DNA of 64,000 nt. It comes from an uncultured Clostridia bacterium. GTDB taxonomy: Bacteria > Bacillota > Clostridia > Saccharofermentanales > Saccharofermentanaceae. Below are positions 12,832 through 40,051 of this stretch, piece by piece. The position numbers and the translations under genes were made by a program. How positions within the stretch are numbered: position 1 is the first letter of the stretch; each line of letters begins with the position of its first letter. The DNA lies in contig CAMIYM010000013.1 of the NCBI GenBank assembly GCA_946403085.1, positions 1 through 64,000 of the forward strand, read 5' to 3'. Under the pieces are notes generated by a model, which made no database searches, was not told the origin of the DNA, and was given only the letters and a program-made list of their open reading frames with translations.

Positions 12832-14736
12832 TCAAGAAAACATCTCCTCTAAAAAGATAGATTTTTCTTTTTTCCAGCCAAAATAAGATTTTGCATATGT
12901 TAGATATAAAACTTTCTTGGCCCTTGTTATGGCAACAAAACAATTTCGTCTTTCTTCCTCCATCTCTGTGCTTTGCAAACCTTTTTTTAAGCTCTGAAAA
13001 GACGGAAGCTCATCATTCGCCATTCCTATTAATATGACATGATCAAACTCTTTGCCTTTTGATGCATGTATAGTTAAAAACTGCACGGCATCTTCACAAG
13101 GTTCCTCTTCCTTTGATACCATAGAGAATTCTTGTATATAGGTCGAAAGCAATATCTCTTCAAGATTATAGTTGTATCTCAAATGCCGCTGAAAATCTAT
13201 CCATACCTTTTTCTCTATTTCGTAGTTTTCTAACACTTGTTCTTTATTTGCAGCATCTTCTATCCTATCAATTCTTGACTCTGCCCATATAAAAGCATCA
13301 TCAATAAATCGAATAAAACTCTTTCCTTCAATCAAATTTAATGAAAAAGATTTTTCAAAATTCTCGTCTTCAAACATCCCCGCACATTTTGTTCTTAGCG
13401 CTTTTAACAAATCACCATCTGTTAGATCCGACTCTAGAATAACTTCCTCTTCATCAATATCAAAATCTAATCCTCCAGACAAAACGCCTACTATTTCTTT
13501 AAGAATTCTCTTATCTGTTCGATGATTCGAAAGCTTTAATGCCAAAAACAACCATAAAATATAAGGTGTCTCGAAATCTGATTTTCTTCTAGATTTTTCG
13601 CATTTAATACCAGCATTTTTTGTTTCTTGAAACGCTAGTTCTAATAATCTATTATTTCTTGCAAGAACACTTATTGTTTCTCTCGGTTTTTTCTCAAGTA
13701 TATGCTGTATTATTCTTGTTATAGTCTGCGCCTCCTCTTTCTCGTTTTCTAACTCATTGCAATAAATATGCGGATTATTATCCCCCAGCACCTTCATTGC
13801 CACTAATGGTTTTTTATTCTCTTCTCTACCCGAATTATGTGCTATTAAATTATTCGCACATTCAATAACCTCTTTGGGGCATCTAAAATTTTGATTCAGT
13901 TGTATTAATTCTGCTCCATACATTTCCTTGAATTGCAATATTCTACGATGATCGGCACCATTCCATCCATAAATGACTTGATCATCATCCGCAACAATAA
14001 AGATGTTATTATTAATGCTTCCACACATACTAGTCAATACCATATACTGTCCATAATTAGTATCTTGAAATTCATCAACATTAACATAGCGATACGTTTT
14101 TGCATAAATACGTGCTATCGCAGGTTTACTTTTAAACAGTCTGTATGTCAACATTATTAACATATTAAAATCCAATGTTGAATTATTCAGCATACGCTGG
14201 AAATATTCCATATATATCCATTTATAGGCCTTAGCATATTCTGTACGTGGCATGTTTTTTTCAACATCTTCTTCTGTGAAACAAAGCTTCATTTCAAAAT
14301 AAGAAATCATATTCAAAAGCTTTAGTTCATGTGACGGAAAACTAGTATCAATTTTCTTATAGTCGTTACATATATCTTCTATCACATCATTTAAATCATC
14401 ATTCGAACTATATATATCAAAATCAGATTTTACGCCCACATAGCTTCCATGATTTCTAAGCACTTCTGAACAAAAAGAATGAAAAGTTCCTATATATAGT
14501 CTGTGATTAACATCCTCGACACCATCTAAAATTCTCTCACTCATTTCTTGTGCTGCTTTGTTTGTAAAAGTAAGCGCCAAAATTCTAAAAGAATCATCTT
14601 CACTTTCCTGCAAAATTCTTCTTATTCGATCAGTCAAAACGGCCGTTTTACCTGACCCCGGGCCTGCCAATACTACAACAGGTCCATCATTCCACTGAAT
14701 CGCACACTTTTGAGATTCCGTATACTTTTTTTCCAA
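12832..14736 (-). CDS. gajB: UvrD-like superfamily 1 helicase, Gabija GajB
   Basis: QKCAIQWNDGPVVVLAGPGSGKTAVLTDRI, ILALTFTNKAAQEM, VDEFQDTNYGQY, FIVADDDQVIYGWNGAD, LNQNFRCP, FLTIHASKGKEFDHVILIG, RRNCFVAITRAKK; directly downstream of the OLD-TOPRIM gene. Confidence 0.88.
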   Translation of the reverse strand: MEKKYTESQKCAIQWNDGPVVVLAGPGSGKTAVLTDRIRRILQESEDDSFRILALTFTNKAAQEMSERILDGVEDVNHRLYIGTFHSFCSEVLRNHGSYVGVKSDFDIYSSNDDLNDVIEDICNDYKKIDTSFPSHELKLLNMISYFEMKLCFTEEDVEKNMPRTEYAKAYKWIYMEYFQRMLNNSTLDFNMLIMLTYRLFKSKPAIARIYAKTYRYVNVDEFQDTNYGQYMVLTSMCGSINNNIFIVADDDQVIYGWNGADHRRILQFKEMYGAELIQLNQNFRCPKEVIECANNLIAHNSGREENKKPLVAMKVLGDNNPHIYCNELENEKEEAQTITRIIQHILEKKPRETISVLARNNRLLELAFQETKNAGIKCEKSRRKSDFETPYILWLFLALKLSNHRTDKRILKEIVGVLSGGLDFDIDEEEVILESDLTDGDLLKALRTKCAGMFEDENFEKSFSLNLIEGKSFIRFIDDAFIWAESRIDRIEDAANKEQVLENYEIEKKVWIDFQRHLRYNYNLEEILLSTYIQEFSMVSKEEEPCEDAVQFLTIHASKGKEFDHVILIGMANDELPSFQSLKKGLQSTEMEEERRNCFVAITRAKKVLYLTYAKSYFGWKKEKSIFLEEMFS

Positions 14737-14742
14737 AACAAA

Positions 14743-16647
14743 TCACACCTTCCAAATTAGCTTTTTTATTACTTCAGGTATCTCATCTACTGAAAACCCT
14801 CTTTCATCCCAAAGATTCAACAGATTGTAAGCATTTTCAACTTTTCCATTTTGAATTAGTTTTACAACCTTCTTTTTATACTCGTCTGTTTCTCCTTCTT
14901 CCTTTAGTTTGCTAATGTCTTCAGAAATATTATCACCAAGAATGATTTCATAATCATTAAAAATAGAAGGTACATCAGCTAATTCATGTTCAAAGTCCGT
15001 ATTATTAGTGAGTAACAGTGTTTCTGCAACATCCTCTCTCTCATATCCACATTTTAGGATTTCTTTAATTGTTTTCTCACCCTGACCATCGTTATCTCCT
15101 AGTACAACCCATCCTATATTCAAAACCTTCGCTAGTTTAATAAACGCTCCCGCAGAACCATTACTTCGATACATAATTCCATTTATCCCATACTCATCAA
15201 AATCTTTTCCAAGCAATTTAGCAAAATATGGAATAACTACATCCTCACTTTGGCCTTCATATAAAAACCATTTTCTTGCGAACAGAATATCGCCCCTATT
15301 TCTTTGAATATACATATTTAGATTACATAATTCTGTTTTATCAAAAATCATATATGCATCTTCCAAAATCCCATCAATATTTGGCACTATATCTTTGCAA
15401 CAGCCTTTTAATGCGTTAGCTAATTGTTTATTTATCGGTTTTGTAATTGTAACCGTTTTCTCTTCTTCATTTAGATTAACTACTTTATCATAAGCTCTTG
15501 CAACACTCTTTAACCCCTCATTTATGTTGTCCACCTCAAAACAGAAATGATCACATATTCCAAAAACTTGAGTTTCTCCATTTTCCTTCTTTATATATCT
15601 GATGTTTCGTATATCAGCATTTTGTATAAAATAAGGGGAATGTGTTGTAATTATTTTCTGACAATCCATTTCCTCTATCGATTTTTGAAGTGCTCTAGTT
15701 GCCTGAGGATGTAAGTGCGCTTCTGGCTCTTCAAGTGTAAGAATTGCTTCGGCTGAATCTGTACTAATCTCCTTAAGCAAAATATTTATATATGCTTTAA
15801 ATAACAAAATTGCCGTAACACTTTGTGTTCCCTGTCCATGCTTTTCTAAAGGAAAATCCATCTGCGCTGTTCCATTATTCAATACAACTTGGGCTTTAGA
15901 TAATAAATCCCAGGTTTTAATAGGCACTGCATTTATTGATACTAAGTCATGAGCTTCGCCTTCAAAATCCATCACATTTTGAATCTTCTGTAATTCATCA
16001 ACAAGCTTCGTTAGATTTTCATCGTTGGATATAATATTCGTATTTAGTTGTTTTATCTGTTCTTGGATAGCATTCAACTCAGCTTGTGGAATCGCTGCTT
16101 TCTTCATAAATCTTCCCCATAACGGAGATTTCGAACTGAATGTATCTTTTATCTCTCTTAACGCTTGTAAATAAAAAACCGGAGTTAACATAATAAACTT
16201 GTTAACTAAATTTTGAACTCTTCCTGTAATAGGTTCGAATTCACTATTTAAAAATATCGTACTTGCTTCAATGTAAGACGTAACTTCATTGTAGGTCGCT
16301 GACGTTTGTAAAATTATAGATGCCTTCTCGCCATCGAGATACTGAAGTGCGTCAATAAAAGTGTCGCTAATATACCCCTCCCATTCATCTATTTCTCTTT
16401 CCTCAAAGATTAGTATTATTTTTATACCGTCTGAATCCTTAGGCGATGCCATTTCTGAGTCCATATAAAAATCATAATCATCAAATACAGTTCTCGTTCC
16501 TTGACGAGATAGTCCATTTCTAATTGCATCTAATAAAGCTGTTTTTCCCGCATTATTCTCGCCAATTAATACGGTCGATTCGTCAAGTTTAATATTGACA
16601 TCCCTTAGGCTACGAAAATTTTTAACTCTTACTTCCTTCAAGAACAT
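14743..16647 (-). CDS. gajA: OLD-family ATPase/TOPRIM endonuclease, Gabija GajA
   Basis: LKEVRVKNFRSLRDVNIKLDESTVLIGENNAGKTALLDAI; LTLEEPEAHLHPQATRALQKSI; IITTHSPYFIQNA; TOPRIM-like ...LYEGQSEDVVIPYFAKLL...WVVLGDNDGQG; 6 nt from the UvrD gene. Confidence 0.88.
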   Translation of the reverse strand: MFLKEVRVKNFRSLRDVNIKLDESTVLIGENNAGKTALLDAIRNGLSRQGTRTVFDDYDFYMDSEMASPKDSDGIKIILIFEEREIDEWEGYISDTFIDALQYLDGEKASIILQTSATYNEVTSYIEASTIFLNSEFEPITGRVQNLVNKFIMLTPVFYLQALREIKDTFSSKSPLWGRFMKKAAIPQAELNAIQEQIKQLNTNIISNDENLTKLVDELQKIQNVMDFEGEAHDLVSINAVPIKTWDLLSKAQVVLNNGTAQMDFPLEKHGQGTQSVTAILLFKAYINILLKEISTDSAEAILTLEEPEAHLHPQATRALQKSIEEMDCQKIITTHSPYFIQNADIRNIRYIKKENGETQVFGICDHFCFEVDNINEGLKSVARAYDKVVNLNEEEKTVTITKPINKQLANALKGCCKDIVPNIDGILEDAYMIFDKTELCNLNMYIQRNRGDILFARKWFLYEGQSEDVVIPYFAKLLGKDFDEYGINGIMYRSNGSAGAFIKLAKVLNIGWVVLGDNDGQGEKTIKEILKCGYEREDVAETLLLTNNTDFEHELADVPSIFNDYEIILGDNISEDISKLKEEGETDEYKKKVVKLIQNGKVENAYNLLNLWDERGFSVDEIPEVIKKLIWKV

Positions 16648-17773: not shown

Positions 17774-18616
17774 TCAGTTTGCTTTTCCACCAGTACGTTG
17801 AATAACATCTGCAATATATGGTAAATCTTGTTTTCCAAAGGCAAAACCAAATGTATATATATCCGTAATATTTTTATTTACATTCCTTAAAAACGAACTA
17901 TTAAACGAAATGTTTGATTTTGGATCCTTTCTTAATAATCTTATCGCATCTTCAAGTATCGATTTTACACTTGGTCAATCAAAATCGTTGTCAATTTCAT
18001 GTGTTTCATCCGAATGGCCTATAATTAAACGATCCATAATATTTTGTCTGCTTCCGTGAATATAGCATATTTGGTGTCTTGATATTCCATATATCGATTC
18101 AAGTGTTTCAGTATTATTAAAATTGATGAATAATGCATCTGAAGTGAAATGATCACTAATCTTTACTTTGCCGCATGGAGTACCAATATCAACAGACTTT
18201 ATCCAATCACTGAAATAATCCGGAATCTTTGTCATAGCGTCAAGTATAAGAGTTGCGTTATTTACACAAACATCATCATACCTTGAAGGATTCTCAAATG
18301 CTTCACCAGGTTCAAGCACTTCTGATACAATACTTTCAAACTTACTAGCAATTGGTAGCTTAGACAGAGAATCTTCGAATGTATTCCATCTATAATCCAA
18401 TGATATATTGTTATCAAACAATTCTTTAAGAAAACAAAGACCTGTCTTATAATTCGTCTCACCATCTTGATCTGTAATAAAATAACCAAGAGGTAAAGTA
18501 TCCGTCGGAGATGGATCATCAAGCAAATTCTCAATCCACTCCTTAAAACAAGAATATTGAGTTTTAAAACCATGAGCTATATCAAATCCATTGCCAATAA
18601 TGAATAGATTCTTCAT
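17774..18616 (-). pseudogene. AbiH-family abortive-infection protein interrupted by in-frame TGA at 17975-17977
   Basis: MKNLFIIGNGFDIAHGFKTQYSCFKEWI (AbiH N-terminus). After the TGA the same frame continues PSVKSILEDAIRLLRKDPKSNISFNSSFLRNVNKNITDIYTFGFAFGKQDLPYIADVIQRTGGKAN* to 17774. Confidence 0.8.
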
Positions 18617-18696: not shown

Positions 18697-19626
18697 TCAA
18701 TATCTTGTCCTTACCAACACATTATTCGAATCTTGTTTACTCTCCGCCGCATACCGTATCTTCCCTTCATCAATCAATTCCTCAACACAGCTCCTGAATG
18801 TTTTTGATGCATTGCCGGAATAACCTAATCTTTTGTATAACTCATTGGTCGATACACTTTCAACAGATAGCGCATCCAGTATTAATTTTTTTATCTGTTC
18901 TTTTGTTCTACGCTTTGGTACCGTTTTGTCAACAGTAGATACAGAAATATTATTTATATTTTTTTCATTCAAAAACGCTTCATGTATCGGAATGATTACA
19001 GAGAAGAATGATCGATTTTCATCGGTAAGGAGCAACGGCAACGGAGAACCATTTTCTTTTATTGCTCTTATAGCAGTCGGAATACCGGTATTTCTGCCTT
19101 CTACAAGGTGTAACTCTTTGAGGAAATCGCCGATTCTTCTATTTCTGTATCTTCTTGTTCTCATCTGATAATTGCGGATATCATCATCTGTGATAGATCT
19201 GTCAGGTCCAGGTGTGCTTGTAATCTCAATCTTATCTGCTTCTATTCTTACTGTAACCGGTTCATGGAGCTGATAAGACTTATGATAAATAGCATTAGAT
19301 AAGAATTCCTCGATCGCCTCATAACTGTAGTTCTTAACTCTTACAGCTTCAGCTTGTCCAGCAATCTTAAATATCTTCTCAGCAATTATATTGTTCTTTA
19401 TGTAACTGAGTGCATCCCGCAGCTGTTCATCTATCGGCCCAGCGAAAATGCGTTCTACCATTCCCTGACCTGTTGGATCAGGAATATTAAGTACTTCTAT
19501 CCGGCTATACGGAAAAAACGCTTCCGGATAATCATTAAAGAACAGCAAGCCAACATTCAACGATATTCTCTGTTTATAATTTCTCAATTGTGATAGGAAT
19601 TGCCCTGTTCTGTCTCCTATAAGCAT
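18697..19626 (-). CDS. Truncated AlbA_2/HATPase-type protein (ATPase-like and wHTH parts only)
   Basis: VGLLFFNDYPEAFFPYSRIEV...YSYEAIEEFLSNAIYHKSYQLHEPVTVRI...GRNTGIPTAIRAIKENGSP; no AlbA_2 domain. Confidence 0.75.
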   Translation of the reverse strand: MLIGDRTGQFLSQLRNYKQRISLNVGLLFFNDYPEAFFPYSRIEVLNIPDPTGQGMVERIFAGPIDEQLRDALSYIKNNIIAEKIFKIAGQAEAVRVKNYSYEAIEEFLSNAIYHKSYQLHEPVTVRIEADKIEITSTPGPDRSITDDDIRNYQMRTRRYRNRRIGDFLKELHLVEGRNTGIPTAIRAIKENGSPLPLLLTDENRSFFSVIIPIHEAFLNEKNINNISVSTVDKTVPKRRTKEQIKKLILDALSVESVSTNELYKRLGYSGNASKTFRSCVEELIDEGKIRYAAESKQDSNNVLVRTRY

Positions 19627-19744: not shown

Positions 19745-20953
19745 TTATAATTCCTTTTGATTAATTCTATCTATCAGCTCTTTTAGATCACGTCCTTTGT
19801 TAATGCCAAGTGATAGATCATATTCTAGACGCATCTTATCTACTTCAAGAGAATAATTGTCTTCATTACTTATATCACCAAACATAACAGGAGAACACAC
19901 TATTCTATTTCTGTCTAATGAAGAAATACTTATTCCATCTAAATCATTCTCAACATATATCCCTTTACCACCTATAATGCTTATGCAACCATAATACCTT
20001 TGTCGTCCAAAAAGAGAAATCATTTCATCACGATATCCTTGTGTAACTGATTCGATGTTATTCCATATGCTTTTATAGGACAAATACCATTTCCCTCTAT
20101 AATCATTTTTGTATTTTTCTAGGGGCATAAAATACTCTGCAATCCCATTATTATATAATGTTGCTGAATCATCAGAATATGAATCTGTTCCATATCTTAA
20201 TCCATCAACACATGGGATAGATAACTGACTAAGTATGTTTGTCATCATAAACACCTTACCCAAGTTATGACCTGTTTTTTTCTCAAAGAGAAATAACTGC
20301 TTTTTTTCTTCTAAAAATGATTCAGGAATTAGATGAAAAATAACAAAACCTTTATTGCTATAATCGATTTCATTGGAAAAATAGTTTATTCTTCCAACTC
20401 GATAATTATATATTTCTTCTTCTAAAACTCTAGCTTTAAGGTACATGCTTCTTAACTCTGTATAACTGATCGGATTATTACCATTACCATTTCGTTTATA
20501 TATGATGTAGTACTTTTGATCCACAATGAATATATAAGGAGCATAGTAGTCATTTGAAATAAATATTAAAATAATATAATCATTACTCTCTAGTGGTATT
20601 GTTTTAATTGTTACTGTCGGAGCCTTTGGCATAATTGAGCTCAGTTTATTGCGTAGCTCAAGTTCAAATTTGTCTGTATCATCAATTCGAACACCTTTTA
20701 TCTCTACAGGTATTCCTTGTTCTTCTCGAATACCATAAATAAGGAACCCACCTTCAGCATTTGCAAATGAACATATATCTTTACGAAATTCATTAATCTT
20801 AGCCGTTTTGGTTTCTGTATCTGAATTAATAAAAGAGAATGTTTCTTTATAGTCAATATACTGACTTTCACGATAACTTGGATCATTCAAAATTGATCTA
20901 AAGTCCTCTTCTTCACAATCCAAAATCGATTTATCATTAATCTTGATATGCAT
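19745..20953 (-). CDS. Schlafen-like AlbA_2 domain protein
   Basis: ESQYIDYKETFSFINSDTETKTAKINEFRKDICSFANAEGGFLIYGIREEQGIPVEIKGV. Confidence 0.85.
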   Translation of the reverse strand: MHIKINDKSILDCEEEDFRSILNDPSYRESQYIDYKETFSFINSDTETKTAKINEFRKDICSFANAEGGFLIYGIREEQGIPVEIKGVRIDDTDKFELELRNKLSSIMPKAPTVTIKTIPLESNDYIILIFISNDYYAPYIFIVDQKYYIIYKRNGNGNNPISYTELRSMYLKARVLEEEIYNYRVGRINYFSNEIDYSNKGFVIFHLIPESFLEEKKQLFLFEKKTGHNLGKVFMMTNILSQLSIPCVDGLRYGTDSYSDDSATLYNNGIAEYFMPLEKYKNDYRGKWYLSYKSIWNNIESVTQGYRDEMISLFGRQRYYGCISIIGGKGIYVENDLDGISISSLDRNRIVCSPVMFGDISNEDNYSLEVDKMRLEYDLSLGINKGRDLKELIDRINQKEL

Positions 20954-21049: not shown

Positions 21050-22498
21050 TCATCTTACTGTAGCAATTTCTTCACCTTTGATAAAAGAGCCAAGCAACGG
21101 AGCAGACTCAAAACATGATGGATATCTATAATCCCGATATCTTTTTGTCTGCATGTTTTCTTCTATATCCATAAACTGACTTATAAAACTCTCAATCGTA
21201 TCATGATTAAACAAAGGTAGTATTTTATGCACTTTTTCTTTTGATACTAATAATCGAGCAAGAATATGAATACTATTATTATAATTGTTATCATAAATGT
21301 ACGAAACAGGAAACCATTCATAATCCGAATTATAGTATTTCCCATATACAGCATAATTAAAGCATAGAAGATCTGCAGCAGTAAAATCAGACTTAGTTAT
21401 AATATTGTTGTCTATGTTGTTAACCCAATAATGGGCTGTTCCTGAATAGTATTTTTTATTGTCTCTTTCGTTAATGGCATTATCAAAACGGCTATGTATA
21501 GATCCGGAATAGAACATAATAAAACTATCTCCTTTTTCTTTGCCATATTTGGGCACATCATAAAAATACGTCCTCCCTAAAATATAGCCTATACCTGCAT
21601 ACATTTTTCTTTTTAGCAAATAAGCAATAGTGCTAATAAAGAGTTCATGAATAAAAATTTTTGAAATCTCTGTCTCTAGTGAAGATTGTTTATCAACAGA
21701 ATTGAATGTGCTCTCAAAAAAATCGGCAATGTATTCAGAATAATTATCTACCCATACACATTTAGTCAACAACGTTAAATAATCAGATCTGATTGTTCTT
21801 GTTGAATCATAATGCTTAATGTATTCTTCAGAGGAAGCATTTGAAAATTTATCATCAAGGATACTAGTAATTGCCTCCTTTATCTCAACTAAGTAACTGC
21901 TGAATCTTTCTGAAATTATAATCCGAGGACTTGTTTCTTTCAGCGAATCATATTTAGACAGTGTTTTAGGCGAAAGACTTATTTGCTCATCAACCCATTG
22001 GGGTTTTGTACCTAGTTCTGGAACTTTATACGTATCAACACCATAAAGAGATCTAACGAGGTTTTTATACTGCTCATCGTAGTTATCTTCGATAGAAAGA
22101 TCAAAATGATAACTACCTTTAAGATATATTGGTTTGCAAACTTCATTATTTGCATTTCGTTCAAAAATAATCGGAACAAATTTGTTTTGGTCTACCTTGT
22201 TATATACTTCTTGAGAAATAATCTGAGTTTCGGTGCCAACTCCACCTTGTCTTCCGTCAGCTTTAACAACATAATTCTCATCAAGCAGAATCAGGACATT
22301 AGTTATTGATGGATCGCTTACACTTTTTTCCATGAAGCTATTCATGTCATTTCCAGCTTCAACACTCCATTTATCAATGACAACATCAATGCCATCACTT
22401 TTCAAAGAAGTTGCAAAAGCCAATACTTTCATTTGATAATCCTTAGTTCCCCAAGCATATGAAATGAATACCTTAGGATGTTCAATTCTGTTTTTCAT
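21050..22498 (-). CDS. SEFIR/TIR-like domain protein
   Basis: HPKVFISYAWGTKDYQMKVLAFATSLKSDGIDVVIDKWSVEAGNDMNSFMEKSVSDPSITNVLILLDENYVVKADGRQGGVGTETQIISQEVY. Confidence 0.85.
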   Translation of the reverse strand: MKNRIEHPKVFISYAWGTKDYQMKVLAFATSLKSDGIDVVIDKWSVEAGNDMNSFMEKSVSDPSITNVLILLDENYVVKADGRQGGVGTETQIISQEVYNKVDQNKFVPIIFERNANNEVCKPIYLKGSYHFDLSIEDNYDEQYKNLVRSLYGVDTYKVPELGTKPQWVDEQISLSPKTLSKYDSLKETSPRIIISERFSSYLVEIKEAITSILDDKFSNASSEEYIKHYDSTRTIRSDYLTLLTKCVWVDNYSEYIADFFESTFNSVDKQSSLETEISKIFIHELFISTIAYLLKRKMYAGIGYILGRTYFYDVPKYGKEKGDSFIMFYSGSIHSRFDNAINERDNKKYYSGTAHYWVNNIDNNIITKSDFTAADLLCFNYAVYGKYYNSDYEWFPVSYIYDNNYNNSIHILARLLVSKEKVHKILPLFNHDTIESFISQFMDIEENMQTKRYRDYRYPSCFESAPLLGSFIKGEEIATVR

Positions 22499-22579: not shown

Positions 22580-24175
22580 TTAAACAGAAAACTTATATTT
22601 CCCTTTACCCATTCCTTCTACCGAAACAGTAATCTTAAGTTCCTTTTCCATTCTTTTCAAATATGCAGTAGCCGTTACTTCTGAACACCCCAAGATTTCG
22701 ACCACGCGAGAATTACCGAAAACCTCTGTTCCGACTTCTTCATATATTTTCAATGTGTTTTGCTTTATTTTTTTTGAATACTTTGAATCCAAGATTTTTT
22801 GCTTTATATCTTTGGTTTCATTCTCAATCCAAACATTTTTCTTTGGTTCGGCGCCATGTTTAATCTCATAGTAATCCTCATTTACAGGAATAACAACTGA
22901 AGTAACATTGTCATTGACGTCAAATGACTTATAGTAGAGTTCCGGTGAACCATTTTCACGCATTGATCTTTTGGCTTCTCCTATTCCTGTTCCAAATGAT
23001 TCAATGATGCCTAACGCCTTAAACATATCTCTGATTTCCGGATTTTCCGTGTCTCTTTCGTTAAAGAATGACCGCTCATTCAAATCACTAATACGAATCG
23101 GTGGCAGTGGTTTATTATAATTCACAATATTGATCTGTTTTTCAGATATGTATATTTGAATCGGCTTCCCATTTTCATAATTGTTGTGAACAATTGCATT
23201 GGCTAAGAGTTCTTCCACTGCAACATATGTAAAATTCTCAATTTTGCGGTTCTCCGCAATACCGTCAACACGAACAATCAGCTCGTTTAAGAAATTACTG
23301 TTAATAAACTCAAGTGCAGCATAATACTGTTTCCAAATCGCTCCTTTGAAAACCTTCGATTCCATCTTTCTTTTTGTTCCATACATATCAACAATTAATT
23401 CTGTATAAGAATATGGAATATACTGTTCAGGATGCTCGGAAAACATTAGAACCGCATAGTTCTTGACTCTCTTATCCTCCGGATCGTTTTTATCAATCAA
23501 CACTAGGGTTTTGGCCAGTCTCTTCTTATCCATTCCATCATTGATCTGTCTGGAACTTGTTTTAGAAATGTATTCTCTAAGCAGATCTATATCCAAATCA
23601 TCGATTGAAGCTGTAGAACTGACGATAGAACTATAATGGAAATTCGAAAATTTACGTAACAAATCGTATTCTTCATCAACCCTTGCAAGTCGTGTATCAG
23701 CCTCAATCCTCACATACCTTCCTGGCTTAAGACGTATCTTATTTTCCTTTTCGGCCTTTTCAGTCACCATAAATGGGCCCCCCGCCTGTCTAAGAACGAC
23801 AATTAACAGATAGGAAACTCCATCCACTTTATTTGATATGATTTCAAAAGCAACATGCGGATAAAGAAAAGGTCGTAATGAATTAAGGGTATTCTTACAT
23901 TTTTCAAGACGCCCCTCCGATATTCCTTTTATTGGTAATATCGGAATAGCCTTATTATCATCACTATTCTCTTCTTCCACGCCAATAAAGATAAATTGAA
24001 TATCATTATTGTAGTAATTGTTCCCATACGCACAGATAGTCTTTAGTATCTTATCGAGCTGCTGCTCAGAAGTCTTATACTCAATATATGAACATTCTGC
24101 TGTTCTATTCTTTAGTATTTCATTTGCTTGTTTCATTATCTGTTTATAATCCATAGTTTCTACCTCCGAATCCAA
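22580..24175 (-). CDS. AlbA_2 / HATPase_c_4-type ATP-binding protein
   Basis: CSYIEYKTSEQQLDKILKTICAYGNNYYNNDIQFIFIGVEE; NFTYVAVEELLANAIVHNNYENGKPIQIYI; ESFGTGIGEAKRSMRENGSPE. Confidence 0.85.
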   Translation of the reverse strand: MDSEVETMDYKQIMKQANEILKNRTAECSYIEYKTSEQQLDKILKTICAYGNNYYNNDIQFIFIGVEEENSDDNKAIPILPIKGISEGRLEKCKNTLNSLRPFLYPHVAFEIISNKVDGVSYLLIVVLRQAGGPFMVTEKAEKENKIRLKPGRYVRIEADTRLARVDEEYDLLRKFSNFHYSSIVSSTASIDDLDIDLLREYISKTSSRQINDGMDKKRLAKTLVLIDKNDPEDKRVKNYAVLMFSEHPEQYIPYSYTELIVDMYGTKRKMESKVFKGAIWKQYYAALEFINSNFLNELIVRVDGIAENRKIENFTYVAVEELLANAIVHNNYENGKPIQIYISEKQINIVNYNKPLPPIRISDLNERSFFNERDTENPEIRDMFKALGIIESFGTGIGEAKRSMRENGSPELYYKSFDVNDNVTSVVIPVNEDYYEIKHGAEPKKNVWIENETKDIKQKILDSKYSKKIKQNTLKIYEEVGTEVFGNSRVVEILGCSEVTATAYLKRMEKELKITVSVEGMGKGKYKFSV

Positions 24176-24481: not shown

Positions 24482-25378
24482 TTACTTATCCAATTTATTA
24501 TTTTTCTCTTCATCCTTAATCCATTCTTCCCAATAAGGAATACATTGAGATTCAAAAAAACCTTCGATTACCGGAGCATCAATAATTCTGCATAATACGC
24601 TTCCAGAACGGGTAAAAATAACACGATCCACAGGAACGCTTGTACAACTTTCAGGAAAAGAAAACTGTTTATCTGAATACGAGGCTACAATAGGAACATT
24701 ATTCAAACTTGTCGCAAAGCCGGTTTTAAATGGACCCAACTCCTGCTTAATCAGTCCGAGGCTTTCTAATCTAAGAAGATTAACAAAATTCAGATTCGTT
24801 TTATAGTAATTTCCTCCACCAAAATCATGAATGATAGGAGCGTAACTCACATCATCTTTACACGAAAAGCATACGGAACACGAACACACTTCGTTAAAAG
24901 CTTTCGCATCTTCTCCATCCATCTGTTCAAGAATAAACAAAAGCGATTTAGGAACCGTATTGGGATTATTACATTCTTCTGCCAATAACTTTCCCCATAT
25001 TACCTGGGCTTGTTCTATAGATACTAGACGGGCCTTATCCATAAACTGGCTAAGCCAGGAAATATCTATATCGTTTGGTCGAGAAGACTCTTTCAGATGC
25101 TCAACTGCAACACTAAGAATGTTCTTTTGATTATAGTATTCTCTAGTGATTCTATTAGCATTACTAATTAGTATGGATTTTTCATCAATAGGAAGATTGC
25201 TCTTTTTAACATCTTCGATGAAGGAATTCCTGGCCATTACTTTGGGATTGTTGTTATATAGCCAACCACATAATTCAGAAATTCTTTCAATTAACGAACA
25301 ACCAATTTGCCCTATTCCAGATATATCAGATAAATTATTGTTTTCGTTCATAACAATACACTCCCTATCTAAACACAA
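24482..25378 (-). CDS. DUF2806 domain protein (start probably MNENNN, ~25351)
   Basis: DISWLSQFMDKARLVSIEQAQVIWGKLLAEECNNPNTVPKSLLFILEQMDGEDAKAFNEVCS matches the DUF2806 core (S..E.Q.LW..iLA.E...P...S...L..L..L...DA..F). Confidence 0.75.
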   Translation of the reverse strand: MCLDRECIVMNENNNLSDISGIGQIGCSLIERISELCGWLYNNNPKVMARNSFIEDVKKSNLPIDEKSILISNANRITREYYNQKNILSVAVEHLKESSRPNDIDISWLSQFMDKARLVSIEQAQVIWGKLLAEECNNPNTVPKSLLFILEQMDGEDAKAFNEVCSCSVCFSCKDDVSYAPIIHDFGGGNYYKTNLNFVNLLRLESLGLIKQELGPFKTGFATSLNNVPIVASYSDKQFSFPESCTSVPVDRVIFTRSGSVLCRIIDAPVIEGFFESQCIPYWEEWIKDEEKNNKLDK

Positions 25379-25382
25379 TATG

Positions 25383-25508
25383 TTAATGACTTTTCGCTTT
25401 ATGATTAGCCAAAGTCTTCCCGGCTCTGCTTTTTGCAGGCTTCGAAGAATCTTTCTTTGCTAAAGTTTTCGCTGCACTGCCAACCTTGCCACCATGATGT
25501 ACGGCCAT
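25383..25508 (-). CDS. 41-aa basic microprotein upstream of DUF2806 (not in ORF track)
   Basis: MAVHHGGKVGSAAKTLAKKDSSKPAKSRAGKTLANHKAKSH*; strong RBS GGAGGT 8 nt upstream (atggaggttacacttATG). Confidence 0.75.
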   Translation of the reverse strand: MAVHHGGKVGSAAKTLAKKDSSKPAKSRAGKTLANHKAKSH

Positions 25509-25835
25509 AAGTGTAACCTCCATTGTAATTCTAACCGCTTTTTAACATATACAGAGTAGCAACACAACATGTTCAGTATTACAATTGTAATAAACTGCGG
25601 CTTATTCAAATAAATTGTCCCTATAATTGAATATCTACGTTCATAATAAATCATAGCTCTAGCGAAAACGCCTAAGCATAACCTTCACAAAGTAATATAA
25701 ATAATATATTTATGTCTTCACTATAACTAATCTGGTATCTATCATTTATGTTCTGAAATGCTACCAATTGATTTCTCCTCAGGATAATAAGGTTATGGCT
25801 CTTCAATTATAGAAATATATGCGTCTCTATCACAG

Positions 25836-28073
25836 TTACCGCTCATTAATGATTGTCTTGCAACGATTCTCGATAATTTCTATTGTGCTGTTAAGGCTTT
25901 TCTCATTTTTATAATATGGTTCTAATTCTTCTATTATTACCTGGTATATTTGCGTGTCATACGTTGTAGAGCATTCCGCTTTCTCTAACATTTGGATATA
26001 CCTTGCAATATCTTTTTCATTAAGTTCCTTTGAAATATACATGTTCTTCAATGTCTTGTTTGCTTCTTTGACAGCAACTTTGGCATAATCCGCAAACGCC
26101 AATCTGTTAATTGGATTCGCATTTGTCAGTGTTTTTTGTGCCTCGTCCCCAATAGCCGTTCTCAAAAAAGCCCATGCAGCATCAATATCCGATGAGCACG
26201 AAGTTATAGCTATAGTATTAAATACAGATATCATTGGTCCGCGTCCATCAAATGAAGGAGCTCCATAAATATCCACTTCAGAAGTAAAGTCTACAGTATT
26301 GATCAGATCATAATAAATATCATTAAGGATAACCCATTCTGCTTCTAAGTTATCCTGAGAAGATGTGTATGCTTCTTCACTAATATTGTTTTTCGAATAC
26401 TCAGCAAGAGCGCGGAATTCATTTGTATCGATTTTTATTGAGTCCTGGGATACAAAGGAATCCTTCATGGAACAAAACAGAAAACGAAAATACTGCTCGC
26501 GATTATTTCCTATACTGATAGGATCAAAACCACTACATCTACTGCTTATGAATTCCTGATACTCTTCAAATGTAAATCCCTTTTTCCCAATTGGGACATT
26601 GTTTTTATCTGTGACAATTCCCAAGACATTCATTGTTAATGGAATCTGATATAGTTTTCCAGCAGTAGCAAAAGCGTCTAGAGCATTTTCAAAATAATCA
26701 GTCCTTTTTATTCCTTCTTTACCGTCAATATACGGATATAGATCTATCAGAAATTCTTCTGCATTAAGCTGTGTTGTATCGCCAAGGCCAATAACTATAT
26801 CAGGTCCAATACCATTTCGAATATCAACAGTTAACTGATTGGTAACTAATGTAGCCGTATCAGTCAATGATGAATTAGTTTGATAGTAGTCCGGCAATTC
26901 GAAATGCTCTATATCATATCTGGTGGAAACATAAGCAAAATAATCATTATTAGTATGATTGAATATGCGTTGTGATTCACCAATAATCGGATACATCCCC
27001 CATATAGGTGCTATTTCAATAATCTTTTTTCCAATATGAGGATTAGTTTTTGCCTTCTGAAGAACGATCAGTTTGCAGCGGCCACCAACTTCATTACCGG
27101 AAGCGCTAAGATCAAGTATCACTGTTTTCTCTGAACTGATATACGTCAGCCATCCATCACAAAGTGAATAAAGATTATAGTCTGTATAATTAAGATCTTG
27201 TATTACAGTTTCTTTTTTATCATCAATATCATATTGTCGTATTTCAGTTCCGGTTTTTGTTATTATCTTGTTTCCATAAACAGTTCCCGAAGGCTTGTAA
27301 AGAGAAAGTTGTTCGTCCGTCATTTCTATTTTTGTTGACTTACCAGAAGCAAGATCTAACGAGTAATACGCCCCCATCTCCTCTTGATATATCAGGTGTT
27401 CTTCACTTAGATCTGCATTAATAACAGATCCATTACATTCAATCTGGATATCATATACAATCTCAAAATCAGAAATCTTGGCAATATTTGTCTTGTAATT
27501 ATTTCCATCAAGCCAATCATATAAAACGAAGTAACCGTCACCTGTATCAAATACTTTCTTAGGAGATACCCCAGGCATGAAACTAGTCTTTGAAAACTCC
27601 TGCTCCTTATTTATCTCTAGCGTGTCAAAATTTAAAGTGTATTTTGAAATTATTGAAGAGCTATCGTCTGACAATATTATGCTAATTCCTCTTTCGTCTT
27701 TACCCATACACTCAGAGATGTACTGTCTTCCTTTTTCAAGTTCATTAAGATCAATACGCTTTATCAGCTTGCCTGAATAATCATATAGTTCTATCAGACT
27801 AAGCAAAATGGAAGTGCCATCTGAACTGAATCCAGATGCATAAACGGCAACAGCAATATAATCATCGCTTATATATTGTGGCTTGACTGAAGAATATGAG
27901 TATTCTTTATTCTGTTTATATTCATCTGCTAAAACAACGAGTTGTCCTTCATAATAAGAAGCGGTGTCTGGAACTTGCTTGGGCGTTTTAATGGTATATT
28001 TGGGCATTTTCCCACATGAACTTATTAGCACCACAATCGCAAAAAGCACCGCAGACAATTTCTTGCACCGCAT
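25836..28073 (-). CDS. Lipoprotein with C-terminal extracellular solute-binding domain
   Basis: MRCKKLSAVLFAIVVLISSCG lipobox; ...FLIDLYPYIDGKEGIKRTDYFENALDAFATAGKLYQIPLTMNVLGIVTDKNNV is typical of family 1 SBPs. Confidence 0.8.
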   Translation of the reverse strand: MRCKKLSAVLFAIVVLISSCGKMPKYTIKTPKQVPDTASYYEGQLVVLADEYKQNKEYSYSSVKPQYISDDYIAVAVYASGFSSDGTSILLSLIELYDYSGKLIKRIDLNELEKGRQYISECMGKDERGISIILSDDSSSIISKYTLNFDTLEINKEQEFSKTSFMPGVSPKKVFDTGDGYFVLYDWLDGNNYKTNIAKISDFEIVYDIQIECNGSVINADLSEEHLIYQEEMGAYYSLDLASGKSTKIEMTDEQLSLYKPSGTVYGNKIITKTGTEIRQYDIDDKKETVIQDLNYTDYNLYSLCDGWLTYISSEKTVILDLSASGNEVGGRCKLIVLQKAKTNPHIGKKIIEIAPIWGMYPIIGESQRIFNHTNNDYFAYVSTRYDIEHFELPDYYQTNSSLTDTATLVTNQLTVDIRNGIGPDIVIGLGDTTQLNAEEFLIDLYPYIDGKEGIKRTDYFENALDAFATAGKLYQIPLTMNVLGIVTDKNNVPIGKKGFTFEEYQEFISSRCSGFDPISIGNNREQYFRFLFCSMKDSFVSQDSIKIDTNEFRALAEYSKNNISEEAYTSSQDNLEAEWVILNDIYYDLINTVDFTSEVDIYGAPSFDGRGPMISVFNTIAITSCSSDIDAAWAFLRTAIGDEAQKTLTNANPINRLAFADYAKVAVKEANKTLKNMYISKELNEKDIARYIQMLEKAECSTTYDTQIYQVIIEELEPYYKNEKSLNSTIEIIENRCKTIINER

Positions 28074-28664: not shown

Positions 28665-28787
28665 TTAGTTCTTCGGTCTCTTGGGCTGATGATAGATAGT
28701 TACACAACCCGGAATCGGTGGATCAATCGTCTGTTTCTTAGCAACAGCTTTGACTGCTTTCAAGACTTTCTTCTCGATAGTTTTCAT
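28665..28787 (-). CDS. agrD: AgrD-like autoinducing peptide precursor (40 aa, not in ORF track)
   Basis: MKTIEKKVLKAVKAVAKKQTIDPPIPGCVTIYHQPKRPKN*: amphipathic N-terminus, single Cys with possible 5-residue ring CVTIY, Pro-rich charged tail; overlaps the agrB 3' end; RBS gggaggga. Confidence 0.75.
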   Translation of the reverse strand: MKTIEKKVLKAVKAVAKKQTIDPPIPGCVTIYHQPKRPKN

Positions 28788-29356
28788 TGGCTATCCCTCC
28801 CTTCTTTCGTATTTCTAACAGCATTGAAATTGCACAAACCACAATTCCATAGCTGATATAAAAGCGAATCTTAAGAGGGAAATTGAGTAGCATAAGTAAA
28901 AGCAACACTGATACTTCCAATAGTACTGTCAACCTAGATAACCGTTTTGCTTTTCTATACTCGCAAACACTCCAATCTATGTTGGGGTTGTTGATGGAGC
29001 CGATAATTATCACAATTATTGTTGACATTAACACCCCGCCTTGATAAAACAAAATGCAATTTTTCGCCAGGGAAAATAGTGCTACACCTGAAATTGATAC
29101 TGCTGTGGAAGCAATCAGACAGGTTTCAAATCTTTTGCAGTGAATTCCACCACTATATTTTCTAATAAGAGAAAAAGAAACAACAAAATTATTTCCAAAA
29201 GTCGATTCAGAATCAAAGCAAGCAGCAAAATAGTGGCATAAGAGATAATCTTTTCGAGCAATATCTGAACGCCATAGATATACTCTTCGGCATCATTTTT
29301 CGAAATCAGATTTGCCATCATCATTCTGGCTACTATTTTTGAAGCAACCTGATCCA
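28738..29356 (-). pseudogene. agrB: AgrB-like processing protease split by a frameshift (~29160-29185)
   Basis: Frame 1: MDQVASKIVARMMMANLISKNDAEEYIYGVQILLEKIISYATILLLALILNRLLEIILLFLFLL. Frame 2: LIRKYSGGIHCKRFETCLIASTAVSISGVALFSLAKNCILFYQGG... (AgrB R.y.GG.H... motif). Confidence 0.8.
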
Positions 29357-29422
29357 TCTTTTGCCCCCTGTGACAGTATCTCTGTGTACGATATAGCACA
29401 GGCAAAAATGGAATAAAACCAG

Positions 29423-29466
29423 CTTGCCAATATTTGGCAAGTTTGGTTGAAATTAGGCAAGTTTGG
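29423..29466. promoter_or_regulatory. Candidate LytTR/AgrA-type operator upstream of agrB
   Basis: Direct repeats ggcaagtttgg at 29436-29446 and 29456-29466 (20-bp period), plus palindrome cttgccaa-tat-ttggcaag at 29423-29441. Confidence 0.55.
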
Positions 29467-29470
29467 TGTC

Positions 29471-30781
29471 TTACAATGGAATTATAACAACCGAAACAAA
29501 CGCATTCTCTTCTATTTCAAAATTGCAATTTCCATTATTACGTTTTACTGCTTCTTTGATGTTTGTAAGGCCGTAACCATGAGAAATAACATCTTTCTTT
29601 TTACTCTTCATGTCCGCAGTGTTATCATTAACAAATGAATTGCGGCAGGCAAAAATAAACTGACCTTCTTCAATTACTGCTTTAATTGAAAGGATTCTAT
29701 TATCTTCAGGACACTTTTCTAAAGCTTCAATAGCGTTATCTAGTATATTTGTAAGAATAACTATACAATCCCGGTCTTCTATCTTCAGCAAAGAGAGATC
29801 TCCTAAAACAAATCTAAACGTTATTCCCTTTTCTCTTGCTTCCGCATACTTGGTATTAAGAATTGTATTTATCAATCGGTTACCGGTCTCAAATACATTG
29901 GTATTGTTAATAAGTTCAGTATTTTGGATGTTGAGTATATCTTTCATCTTCTCATATTGCTCTTCTGCCATCAGACTTTTTAGTACAGTAATCGTATTCT
30001 TAAACTCATGTTCTCGTTTTCCTAAGATATCCCTTTCCTTTGTAATCTGATCATATAGCTGAACTATACCCTGAGCATGAGCAATCTCAATCTCATTCTT
30101 CTGAGCTTCAAGTGCTCTTCGGGATTCTTGCTTAATAAACCAGAATATGAAAAGATTGATCAAGAGCAAAGAAATGGCTACGTATGTAAAGAGATTGCCT
30201 TGGTATATATTTATTGGTCCATTAAAACTGTATGCAAATAGTGCTATTAAACTAAGTGAATATAGCGGAAAGACCATATATATAAGCCATAATTTTGTCT
30301 CAATTTTGGTCGTTTGTTCTTTTCTGAATGCCTTATGAATAATAAAAACGATTACGAACTGGATAAACTGACTTGCTGCGCCCATATATACAGAAATATC
30401 ACTCTCCATTATCTGAGCTATTTTTAGATTAGGATCAAAGTATCTGTGAATAGCGGCGATAAAAAAATCACATGCAATAGCTATAATGTAAAACAACGTC
30501 GGTATAGCTATAATCATCATTTTGTTTTTCTTTTTGTATAAAACTAAAGAAAAGACTATATTTATTGCTATTACGATTATAATTCTAAAAACCAATGATC
30601 CTTCAAAATAAGTGCCTACCCCAAAACTAGCTATAATCCAAAGTATAGTCGTTACAGTATTAACTATTACAGAATGGTCTTCCAGATCTAAAAAAGTTGA
30701 ACAGAATAGCCGAGCTAAAGCTACGTATACAATGGCATTAACAATATCATAAATCATCCTATTTCCCCTTTGACTAAACAA
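29471..30781 (-). CDS. agrC: AgrC-like GHKL sensor histidine kinase
   Basis: Multi-TM N-terminus; KREHEFKNTITVLKSLM; ILTNILDNAIEALEKC; SHGYGLTNIKEAVKRNNG. Confidence 0.85.
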   Translation of the reverse strand: MFSQRGNRMIYDIVNAIVYVALARLFCSTFLDLEDHSVIVNTVTTILWIIASFGVGTYFEGSLVFRIIIVIAINIVFSLVLYKKKNKMMIIAIPTLFYIIAIACDFFIAAIHRYFDPNLKIAQIMESDISVYMGAASQFIQFVIVFIIHKAFRKEQTTKIETKLWLIYMVFPLYSLSLIALFAYSFNGPINIYQGNLFTYVAISLLLINLFIFWFIKQESRRALEAQKNEIEIAHAQGIVQLYDQITKERDILGKREHEFKNTITVLKSLMAEEQYEKMKDILNIQNTELINNTNVFETGNRLINTILNTKYAEAREKGITFRFVLGDLSLLKIEDRDCIVILTNILDNAIEALEKCPEDNRILSIKAVIEEGQFIFACRNSFVNDNTADMKSKKKDVISHGYGLTNIKEAVKRNNGNCNFEIEENAFVSVVIIPL

Positions 30782-31491
30782 AACTTCCTATTAACATCAT
30801 CAAAACGATTTCTCGCAATCGGTATTTTTATAGTTTCTTTACTACTCTTCCTAATAATCACCTCATATCGTCTTAACTGTACAGAATTCTTCAAATTAAT
30901 AATATATCTTTGATGTGCCCTGATAAAGTATTCCGGCAATTCTTTTAGTGCATCATCAAGACTGCAGCGTCTTATATAGAAAGTTGAATCCTTCTCTTTT
31001 ACGAAGTATTCAATATAGTGTTTCTCGCTTTTAATATAAACAATGTCATCTATAGCCACCTCTAAACGACCATCACTTAACTCCAACAATATTGTTTTTG
31101 GAGATTCCATCTTGAGGATAAAATCTATACATTCAATCAATTCAGACTTAAATGTTTCTTCTTGCTTTACAAGATACCTTACTGCATTGTACTTATAGCC
31201 TTCTCTTGTAAAATCGTAGTAATTGGTAGCAAAAGCAATTTTAGCATTAGGATATACACCGTATATTTCGCGAGCAGTTTCAAAGCCGGTTAATCCATCC
31301 ATTTCATAATCCAAGATGAACAAATCGTATTTACTAATAGCCTCACCCTGCGAAAGTAAGACTTCTCCTGAAATATAGATATCGCATTGGAAGTCAATAC
31401 CGCTCTGTGATAAATAGTTCTCGATTATACCCTTTTCCAATTCCAGAAAGGATTGTTGATCATCACACAAAGCAATACGTATCATAAACAC
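30754..31491 (-). CDS. agrA: LytTR-family response regulator (AgrA-like)
   Basis: MIRIALCDDQQSFLELEKGII...YDLFILDYEMDGLTGFETAREI...; C-terminal LytTR: IVYIKSEKHYIEYFV...YFIRAHQRYIINL. Confidence 0.88.
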   Translation of the reverse strand: MFMIRIALCDDQQSFLELEKGIIENYLSQSGIDFQCDIYISGEVLLSQGEAISKYDLFILDYEMDGLTGFETAREIYGVYPNAKIAFATNYYDFTREGYKYNAVRYLVKQEETFKSELIECIDFILKMESPKTILLELSDGRLEVAIDDIVYIKSEKHYIEYFVKEKDSTFYIRRCSLDDALKELPEYFIRAHQRYIINLKNSVQLRRYEVIIRKSSKETIKIPIARNRFDDVNRKFCLVKGEIG

Positions 31492-35496: not shown

Positions 35497-36249
35497 TCAG
35501 CCTTTTACGTAAGATGCCATATCAAAATCATAGACTTCCATAAGCATCTCAGGCTTTAATCCCTCATCGATTCCGCCATCGAAAATGACCTTACCGTCCT
35601 TCATCAGGACTGCCCTTGTGCAGCACCTTCTGGCCTGCTCCAGGTCATGGAAAACCGCGACCAGAGTGTTGTCGGTATCGCCGGTCTTTCCTGCTGCCCA
35701 TGAGTTCAGTTTGTCGCACAGTTCTGCCCTGTATTTGATATCAAGATTGTTGCCGGGTTCATCGAGGAAAAGGAATGGTGATCCTTGCGCAAAAGTCCTC
35801 GCGAGAAGAACTCTTTGCAGCTGGCCTCCTGAGAGCTCATCTAAGTGCCTGTCTTTAAGTTCAAGAACACCGCAGTCTTCCATACACTTAAGTGCATACT
35901 GAACGTCAGAAGCGTTGTTCCTGAATACAGTATTTCCTGCTGATGCATATGTGCCAAGAAGCACTGTCTCGAAAACAGTGTACGGGAAATACATATCACT
36001 TGTCTGCGGCATGAGAGAGATGTATTTTGCAGTATCTTTTCGCTTCATTTTGAAGACGTCTTTACCGTCAAGAAGGACTTCTCCTTCGTGTGGAATTATA
36101 CCTGACAGGACGCGAAGAAGCGTCGTCTTGCCGGAGCCGTTCGCGCCGCCGATGAAGACCTTTTCGCCGGACTTTATCGTGAGATCTATTCCCTTCAAGA
36201 TCTCAGTTTTGCCATAAGATACTCTCACATTTTTCGCGTTAAGTTCCAT
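35497..36249 (-). CDS. ABC transporter ATPase, FecE/BtuD type
   Basis: IGGANGSGKTTLLRVLSGI; LDELSGGQLQRVLLARTFAQ; LFLDEPGNNLD. Confidence 0.92.
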   Translation of the reverse strand: MELNAKNVRVSYGKTEILKGIDLTIKSGEKVFIGGANGSGKTTLLRVLSGIIPHEGEVLLDGKDVFKMKRKDTAKYISLMPQTSDMYFPYTVFETVLLGTYASAGNTVFRNNASDVQYALKCMEDCGVLELKDRHLDELSGGQLQRVLLARTFAQGSPFLFLDEPGNNLDIKYRAELCDKLNSWAAGKTGDTDNTLVAVFHDLEQARRCCTRAVLMKDGKVIFDGGIDEGLKPEMLMEVYDFDMASYVKG

Positions 36250-37280
36250 CAGCGTTTCCTCCTTGATGTGAAGAAAACATATGCGAAAAAAGGAGCGCCG
36301 ATGAGTGCTGTTACAGCACCTACCGGGATCTCGCGCGGCGATAACAAAGTCCTTGATATCAAGTCGCAGAGCGCCATGAATGCGCCGCCGTAAATGAACG
36401 ACATCGGGATAACGAGTTTATGCGATGGTCCGAAGATCTTTCTTACGACATGAGGCGCAGCGAGATCGATGAATCCGATGACGCCTGTGAATGATACTGA
36501 CACGCCTGTGAGAAGCGCACATATAAGTATCGCCAGTATCTTGGTCTTCTTGGCGTCGACGCCCATCGCCTGGGCCTGAAGGTCACCGAAGCTCATGATG
36601 TCCATTTTTCGCGACATGAGCATAAGCGAGACCAGCCCGAGAATGCATATCGGAAAAAGGATCGCGCAGTGATCCCATCCTCTTGCTGAGAACGAACCCA
36701 TCATCCAGAGAACGATCTGCTTGGAATGATCAGAACTCAGTGTCGATAATAGATTTACTATGCCGTTTACAAAAAGCGACAGGACCATACCCAGCAGGAC
36801 GACCGTCGTGTTGGATACGCTCTTGTCGATTGCAGACGCAAGCATCAATGCGAAAACTACAGTTGCAAGTCCGAAGACAAAACCTGCGGCAGGAAGCATG
36901 AATCCTGCAAGAACAGGAACGGAGATCTCGAGTATCAGGACCAAAGTGGCACCAAGTGACGCGCCGGAAGATACACCTAATGTATATGAAGATGCCAGAG
37001 GATTCTGAAGCAGAGCCTGCATGCACGCACCGCTGATGGAGAGCGCACCTCCGACCATAAATGCCATCAATGCTCTCGGCATTCTGATGACCCAGAAGAT
37101 CGAATCCATCATGGGATCGATCCCTTCAGGCGTTCCCTTGCCGGTTATGTGTCCGCCAATGATCCCCAACAAGTCTTTAAGTGAGATATATACACTTCCT
37201 GACCTGATCGCGAAAACGAGTATAAAAAGGCACAGGACTGCCGATATCACTATCTTAAGTCCTGTGCCCTTCTTAGTCAT
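36249..37280 (-). CDS. FecCD/BtuC-type permease
   Basis: RMPRALMAFMVGGALSISGACMQALLQNPLASSYTLGVSSGASLGA; FIDLAAPHVVRKIFG. Confidence 0.93.
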   Translation of the reverse strand: MTKKGTGLKIVISAVLCLFILVFAIRSGSVYISLKDLLGIIGGHITGKGTPEGIDPMMDSIFWVIRMPRALMAFMVGGALSISGACMQALLQNPLASSYTLGVSSGASLGATLVLILEISVPVLAGFMLPAAGFVFGLATVVFALMLASAIDKSVSNTTVVLLGMVLSLFVNGIVNLLSTLSSDHSKQIVLWMMGSFSARGWDHCAILFPICILGLVSLMLMSRKMDIMSFGDLQAQAMGVDAKKTKILAILICALLTGVSVSFTGVIGFIDLAAPHVVRKIFGPSHKLVIPMSFIYGGAFMALCDLISRTLLSPREIPVGAVTALIGAPFFAYVFFTSRRKR

Positions 37281-37299
37281 AATACTGTTCCGTTAATTA

Positions 37300-38388
37300 T
37301 CAGCCGAAGACCTTCTCGACAACTTCTTTCTTCAAGTCGTCGAAAGACTTTGTAAAGTTGCCGAACTGATCAGGATAGATATCCTTAGCCCACTCGAGGA
37401 TCGCCTCGCTGACGTGGTGGTTAGGACGTGAGCAGAGGTTCTCATTTACCTGGTAAACTTCACCATTCTTGATGGCATTTACATTCTCCCAGCCCTTGAG
37501 TGCCTTAACAGCATCAGCTGCGCCGGGCATCCAGTCGCAGTCCATGAGGATTACATCAGGGTTAGCTGCGATAGCTTCCTCAACAGAGATAGAAAGCCAG
37601 CCTTCCTTGTCGCCGAAAGCGTTCTTGGCACCGATAGCTGTGATCATCTGATCCATGTAAGTACCCTTACCGAATGTGTAAATCGTGGGAGCTTCAGCGG
37701 AAGGTACGTTCATCATAACGAGAACTTTCTTCTGCTTGTCAGCAGGAACTGACTTGCCTGCTTCTTCGATAGCTGCTACGAAAGCTGTGAAACCCTTTGA
37801 AAGAACGAGTGCTTCAGGTCCCTTTCCTACGCAGTTGCCGATGAACTCGATATCCTCGCAGATGCCTTCAAGAGTTGAAGGTGAAGGAATATCAGCAACG
37901 CAGATACCGCTGTCAACGAGAGACTTGAAAGGATTTGAACCACCGACAGAGCTCATGCCTGATGTGAATACGAGGTCAGGCTTAAGTGCAGCGATAGCTT
38001 CGTTATCAGGATTCATCATGTCGAACTGTGCGACATCCTTTGCGAGCTTGTCTGCATATGTTGCAGAGTTTGTATCAATTGCTACGATCTTGTCGCCAAG
38101 GCCAAGCTCGATCAATACCTGTGTTGTTGAAGGTGCGAGAGAAGCGATCTTCTCGACCTTTTCAGGAACCTTGATATCATTGCCTGCACGGTCCTTTGTC
38201 GGAACTGTAAAAGTGAACTGGTCTACGATCTCGGAACCCTTTGAAGCGATAGACTCGAGCTCAGACGGAACTGTTACTGAAGGAACAGTAACATTTGTTG
38301 TGCTGCATCCTGTAGCCAAAGCTAATGTGGCTGCAGCTGCAAGAATAATTGAAAGAATCTTCTTCATTCTATAAAACCTCCTAAACAA
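37300..38388 (-). CDS. Periplasmic-binding lipoprotein, BtuF/FecB type (start probably 38367)
   Basis: MKKILSIILAAAATLALATGCSTT; KVEKIASLAPSTTQVLIELGLGDKIVAIDTNS. Confidence 0.9.
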   Translation of the reverse strand: MFRRFYRMKKILSIILAAAATLALATGCSTTNVTVPSVTVPSELESIASKGSEIVDQFTFTVPTKDRAGNDIKVPEKVEKIASLAPSTTQVLIELGLGDKIVAIDTNSATYADKLAKDVAQFDMMNPDNEAIAALKPDLVFTSGMSSVGGSNPFKSLVDSGICVADIPSPSTLEGICEDIEFIGNCVGKGPEALVLSKGFTAFVAAIEEAGKSVPADKQKKVLVMMNVPSAEAPTIYTFGKGTYMDQMITAIGAKNAFGDKEGWLSISVEEAIAANPDVILMDCDWMPGAADAVKALKGWENVNAIKNGEVYQVNENLCSRPNHHVSEAILEWAKDIYPDQFGNFTKSFDDLKKEVVEKVFG

Positions 38389-38508
38389 AGTGAGAAGATG
38401 TTGTCTTCTTATTGTTCGAATAGATTATAATATTCAACCTACTTTTGAGGTATACTTATTGGCAACTGTTCTATATCTAAAATCTATGTTCAAACAAGGG
38501 AAATAATT

Positions 38509-40046: not shown

Positions 40047-40051
40047 CTAAC

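Follow-up and report, generated by a model that had tools for sequence, protein, structure and literature searches.

A conserved 41-residue basic microprotein beside a DUF2806 gene recurs next to unrelated toxin-antitoxin and anti-phage modules and may be their portable accessory

The window analysed here is the whole stretch of 64,000 nucleotides, and in its defence island a 41-aa open reading frame stands directly ahead of a DUF2806 gene. The locus raises the question whether this frame is a gene at all and, if so, whether it is tied to the DUF2806 gene, as an earlier note on this DNA had proposed in calling the two a possible two-gene defence or toxin module, or belongs to something wider. 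The features of the locus are as follows.

24482..25351, minus strand: gene of the DUF2806 protein (PF10987), 289 aa, a candidate abortive-infection-like effector
25383..25508, minus strand: gene of the 41-aa basic microprotein (open reading frame, homologues, dN/dS, AlphaFold2 hairpin)
25517..25521, minus strand: Shine-Dalgarno sequence GGAGG, 8 nt before the microprotein ATG
25540..25567, minus strand: conserved block TTGTGTTGCTACTCTGTATATGTTAAAA, probable (inferred) microprotein promoter
25574..25597, no strand assigned: near-perfect AT-rich palindrome CAGTTTATTACAATTGTAATACTG, operator-like by its sequence, with a putative function
25836..28073, minus strand: solute-binding-like lipoprotein gene flanking the microprotein (PF01547, E 2e-7)

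The encoded peptide (MAVHHGGKVGSAAKTLAKKDSSKPAKSRAGKTLANHKAKSH) has a predicted pI of 10.9 and a charge of +8.8, and its stop codon is separated from the DUF2806 ATG (25351) by 31 bp. An alternative ATG is present five codons upstream, at 25523, but the start at 25508 is favoured by its strong Shine-Dalgarno sequence and by all relatives. Frames of 41 aa are common as such, with dozens in the window, so that length alone could be due to chance. An early phylum-wide sample gave same-length homologues in three other genomes (68-78% identity), each with a strong Shine-Dalgarno sequence. Chance is excluded by such relatives at unrelated loci together with dN/dS: between the window and its closest relative (L025, 98% identical) dN is 0.01 and dS 0.44 (8 codons differ synonymously and 1 non-synonymously), and the family median of dN/dS is 0.10 for pairs within a 14-member set. 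The microprotein is under strong purifying selection, and on this sequence evidence the frame is a genuine conserved gene. The earlier description of a basic frame with a strong ribosome-binding site stands, and the dN/dS check that the note had suggested came out in favour of a real gene.

Alignment-based scanning of genome contigs gave 89 confirmed relatives; the 80 best, at 49-98% identity, were carried forward, and a scan of viral contigs with an alignment added five loci. The 91 loci were reduced to 71 distinct ones at 90% identity over 800 bp; these belong mostly to Bacillota and Actinomycetota, and a Shine-Dalgarno sequence is found at a similar distance before nearly all of the listed relatives. 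Copies occur in prophages as well as on plasmids. Diverged plasmid forms were seen in Bacillus, Zymomonas, Acidiphilium, Paraburkholderia, Methylocystis and a planctomycete, thereby including Pseudomonadota and Planctomycetota, the most distant of them resting on brief tblastn hits (E up to 1). All 77 unique peptides are basic (pI 10.1-12.0), and the strongly conserved positions among them include A12, L16, K26, S27, A29, L33, H36 and H41. AlphaFold2, run with 58 sequences, places helices at residues 7-17 and 23-40 (mean pLDDT 88), so that the fold is predicted with confidence to be a two-helix hairpin. The AKTLA/GKTLA internal repeat maps onto these two predicted helices, and the K-T-L-A repeats pointed out in the earlier note are thus real. 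Sequence and fold searches of the PDB with the microprotein returned nothing significant, and hence no match that would lend structural support to nucleic-acid binding. Searches of Pfam, NCBIfam and PADLOC with an E limit of 1 gave no family in any of the three, in keeping with the note's view of the peptide as unannotated. A weak profile match was found to phrog_20619 of PHROGs (residues 8-41, E 8e-4, 33 of 44 positions), and this profile matches relatives too; it is an entry of 44 positions without an assigned function, and several of its weak genome matches are probably chance. No paper with the motif was found in full-text searching of the open-access literature, to which the provisional novelty of the family is limited. 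This suggests an unnamed family that annotation has overlooked.

The neighbours of the family were then sorted into classes; representatives were searched with Pfam or PADLOC as a check, and loci were assigned partly by eye. Modules of known type recur: 45 of the 71 distinct loci fall in named classes and 26 outside them. An ImmA/IrrE peptidase with XRE is the neighbour in 19 of the 71 (ImmA-type genes within three genes), the SocA/Panacea antitoxin (PanA) in 10, a PIN-like gene in 7 (PIN being assigned by eye, where PADLOC gives candidate family PDC-S70), IetAS in 5, and an AAA gene with a DUF4276-like one in 4, the DUF4276 match being below its cut-off. DUF3892, DUF2188 and KTSC account for 3 distinct loci each and DUF2806 for 2. 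Single cases were found beside a DNA methyltransferase, a GNAT gene and a zinc-ribbon protein judged HEPN-like by eye. One plasmid bearing the microprotein carries ToxN/AbiQ, and the diverged plasmid copies, from two phyla, adjoin methyltransferase, ToxN/AbiQ, GNAT and ImmA genes. The microprotein is the last gene in most of the toxin-antitoxin loci and in the majority of loci it follows the module, with a tight spacing of 5-35 bp to several small partners. An ImmA-type gene lies within three genes in 27% of the microprotein loci against about 0.3% expected at random, a crude background that covers ImmA only and assumes about 2,300 genes in each of 12 genomes. These 12 genomes, namely that of the window and 11 relatives, have 12 Peptidase_M78 matches in all, about one per genome. 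The association with unrelated modules is promiscuous. In three loci (L068, L082 and L103) the microprotein is preceded, at a distance of 5-7 bp, by an unnamed 71-aa protein (HHEVHT...DADGC..CC..AHRG), with an ImmA-like gene upstream of the latter in at least L068 and L082; the one member searched against Pfam had no match. In L040 a Group II intron domain (RF02001, 5384-5537) lies shortly downstream of the microprotein.

The proposal of a dedicated defence or toxin-antitoxin system made up of DUF2806 and the microprotein, the latter as antitoxin, trigger or subunit, is improbable when the loci are compared. The 289-aa protein is a member of DUF2806 (73.8 bits against a curated cut-off of 24.5, E 2e-20, residues 74-266), and its likeness to Abi_alpha (PF14337) is below threshold (16.3 bits against 29, E 0.01), as is its match to TIGR03899. 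An AlphaFold2 model from two sequences reached a pLDDT of 35, and the DUF2806 profile gave two marginal PDB matches (E 0.02 and 0.04). Relatives of DUF2806 were not found on viral contigs, and full-text search of the open-access literature for DUF2806 returned two plasmid surveys only. Outside the window the pair is present in L026 alone, where the same order, a spacing of 31-32 bp in the two loci and purifying selection on both conserved proteins (82% identity for DUF2806, 88% for the microprotein) speak for a linked pair. Against this, five further DUF2806 loci have no microprotein within the 2.5-5 kb examined on each side, and as far as these five show DUF2806 does not need it; L105 is on an IncX4 plasmid, and L114-L117 come from four same-class genomes. 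The pair is found in 2 of 7 DUF2806 loci, and about 70 distinct microprotein loci are without DUF2806. L025, which has the 98% identical copy and, as in the window, a solute-binding-like/lipoprotein gene upstream, carries after the microprotein a small frame, a SEC-C protein, an AAA ATPase and a SIR2 protein, and no DUF2806. The role of dedicated DUF2806 partner was rejected on this comparison, and with about 70 distinct copies adjoining other systems an antitoxin for DUF2806 is unlikely. Of the conservation beside DUF2806 homologues that the earlier note had proposed to look for, L026 is the one positive case and the five other loci are negative, which is close to none. DUF2806 itself is often carried by conjugative plasmids of Escherichia, Salmonella and Klebsiella, IncX4 among them (299 plasmid records), and on L105 it lies near a MipZ-like gene.

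In the window the microprotein is the first gene of the defence island and probably has a promoter of its own. By eye, L025 shares the block at 25540..25567 and L026 a part of it; a simple consensus scan does not call a promoter there. A dyad related to the palindrome at 25574..25597 is present in L025 and L026, and similar solute-binding-like genes occupy the same place in both. Between 25340 and 25850 no terminator-like site was found, so that co-transcription of the microprotein with the DUF2806 gene behind it is likely. The charge and predicted fold suggest nucleic-acid binding, and since the partners vary, a general effect on the regulation of the module or on its DNA is favoured over the neutralisation of a single toxin. 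The microprotein would most likely bind nucleic acid and tune the expression or activity of the neighbouring module. Our preferred reading, held with middling confidence, is of a portable accessory of unrelated toxin-antitoxin and anti-phage modules that is probably nucleic-acid-binding or regulatory.

A further element was observed in related loci. Conserved inverted repeats are present in the 165 bp upstream of the microprotein in 33 loci, whose upstream modules are of at least five kinds, and form a two-hairpin element at roughly 30-165 bp (L015, L034, L038, L049, L051, L102 and about 27 others). Roseburia hominis An869 and Eubacterium uniforme ATCC 35992 are isolates in which both the microprotein gene and this element occur. 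The arms pair better within a locus than across loci. On the minus strand a 60-nt stretch forms two hairpins, and a U-tract comes after the second as in an intrinsic terminator; the stretch folds with a mean z of -5.5 against mononucleotide shuffles. In 17 sequences, 9 of 16 pairs have changed on both sides and 92.5% of cells pair, a signal that is lost when the partners are slid. A promoter-like pair, TTGNNA-N17-TATNNT, keeps a constant place on the element's minus strand in many loci; the total score of the promoter scan is slightly above that of shuffles, and the promoters rest on their consistent position instead. The element looks like a divergent small RNA, and had no match in Rfam. The window has no such element upstream of its microprotein, and its matches to the small-RNA model R1, which is dominated by its terminator hairpin, are weak and elsewhere. 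Whole-genome matches to R1 reach up to 35.8 bits against 54-78 bits for the sequences that built the model; they are probably chance because of these far lower scores and because no microprotein was found in their available flanks. A reading as one long hairpin leader hiding the microprotein Shine-Dalgarno was set aside, as the minus-strand two-hairpin reading fits the U-tract and the covariation better; the long inverted repeat behind it is real too.

The main rival to the portable accessory is that the microprotein hitchhikes on mobile elements as a cassette, so that its neighbours reflect shared islands and not shared function. We consider this rather doubtful. It would account for copies in prophages and plasmids, for recombinase genes near several copies, for near-identical microproteins beside different modules (window and L025) and for very different partners without an obvious common target, whereas strong purifying selection, the close packing against several small partners (5-35 bp), the recurrence of the same few module types and the position at the end or start of operons count against it. 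A toxin or antimicrobial peptide, under type I-like control by the divergent small RNA in related loci, would suit a small basic product with an RNA-like element and apparent intrinsic terminator just upstream in 33 loci. Most type I toxins have a hydrophobic or membrane-spanning stretch, but the microprotein has none, the element is absent from the window and no overlap with the mRNA is expected for the predicted RNA, which makes this reading highly improbable. That the frame is a chance one, or a leader peptide whose sole role is translational coupling, is prompted by its being short and directly upstream of a gene; this was rejected on conservation and dN/dS, and it is essentially refuted by amino-acid conservation across phyla, by dN/dS of about 0.1 and by the fact that most loci have the microprotein behind the module.

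Known third genes of toxin-antitoxin loci (mazG, toxin-antitoxin chaperones, PaaR, the 25 of PanAT) resemble the microprotein in standing beside a complete pair in part of the loci only; in PanAT the 25 accessory proteins are each found in a small fraction of loci (PMC8832971). These genes include enzymes, chaperones and regulators and, where described, go with particular module types, whereas the microprotein has 41 aa, no family entry and many unrelated modules; by these general descriptions it is set apart from them. As a portable accessory, it would point to a shared step in the regulation, triggering or movement of toxin-antitoxin and anti-phage systems, and could serve as a marker for new defence modules. 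More tentative is the extension, unlikely on present evidence, that a cross-phylum family of 41-44 aa hairpins is a general plug-in of conflict systems with one common mechanism, joined in some lineages by a divergent small RNA. Nucleoid-associated or histone H1-like basic proteins are Lys/Ala/Ser-rich with a high pI, as is the microprotein, but the latter is a short predicted folded hairpin linked to defence, with no sequence or structure match.

The defence-cluster setting described earlier was confirmed by finding Gabija, bSEFIR and AbiH in the window. Gabija (12832-16647) looks complete, with GajB (UvrD-like helicase) and GajA (AAA-TOPRIM); the E values for GajA/GajB are 8e-164 and 1e-211. 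A bSEFIR defence protein lies at 21050-22498 (E 1e-81), and the AbiH-like gene at 17975-18616 encodes 213 aa, shorter than its profile, of which it matches positions 1-187 of 260. Four proteins of one island have AlbA_2 and/or RecG-C-like HATPase_c_4 domains or related PADLOC matches, at the following positions of the window.

8724-10145: protein of this group
18697-19626: protein of this group
19745-20953: protein of this group
22580-24175: protein of this group

On the other side of the solute-binding-like gene, an Agr-like quorum-sensing locus (28665-31491, by eye) has an AgrD-like peptide, a histidine kinase and a LytTR regulator, and its AgrB-like gene is split into two frames by a frameshift in this assembly. 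Further along (35497-42460, by eye), an iron or B12-type ABC transporter is found beside metF-like and B12-dependent methionine-synthase-like genes.
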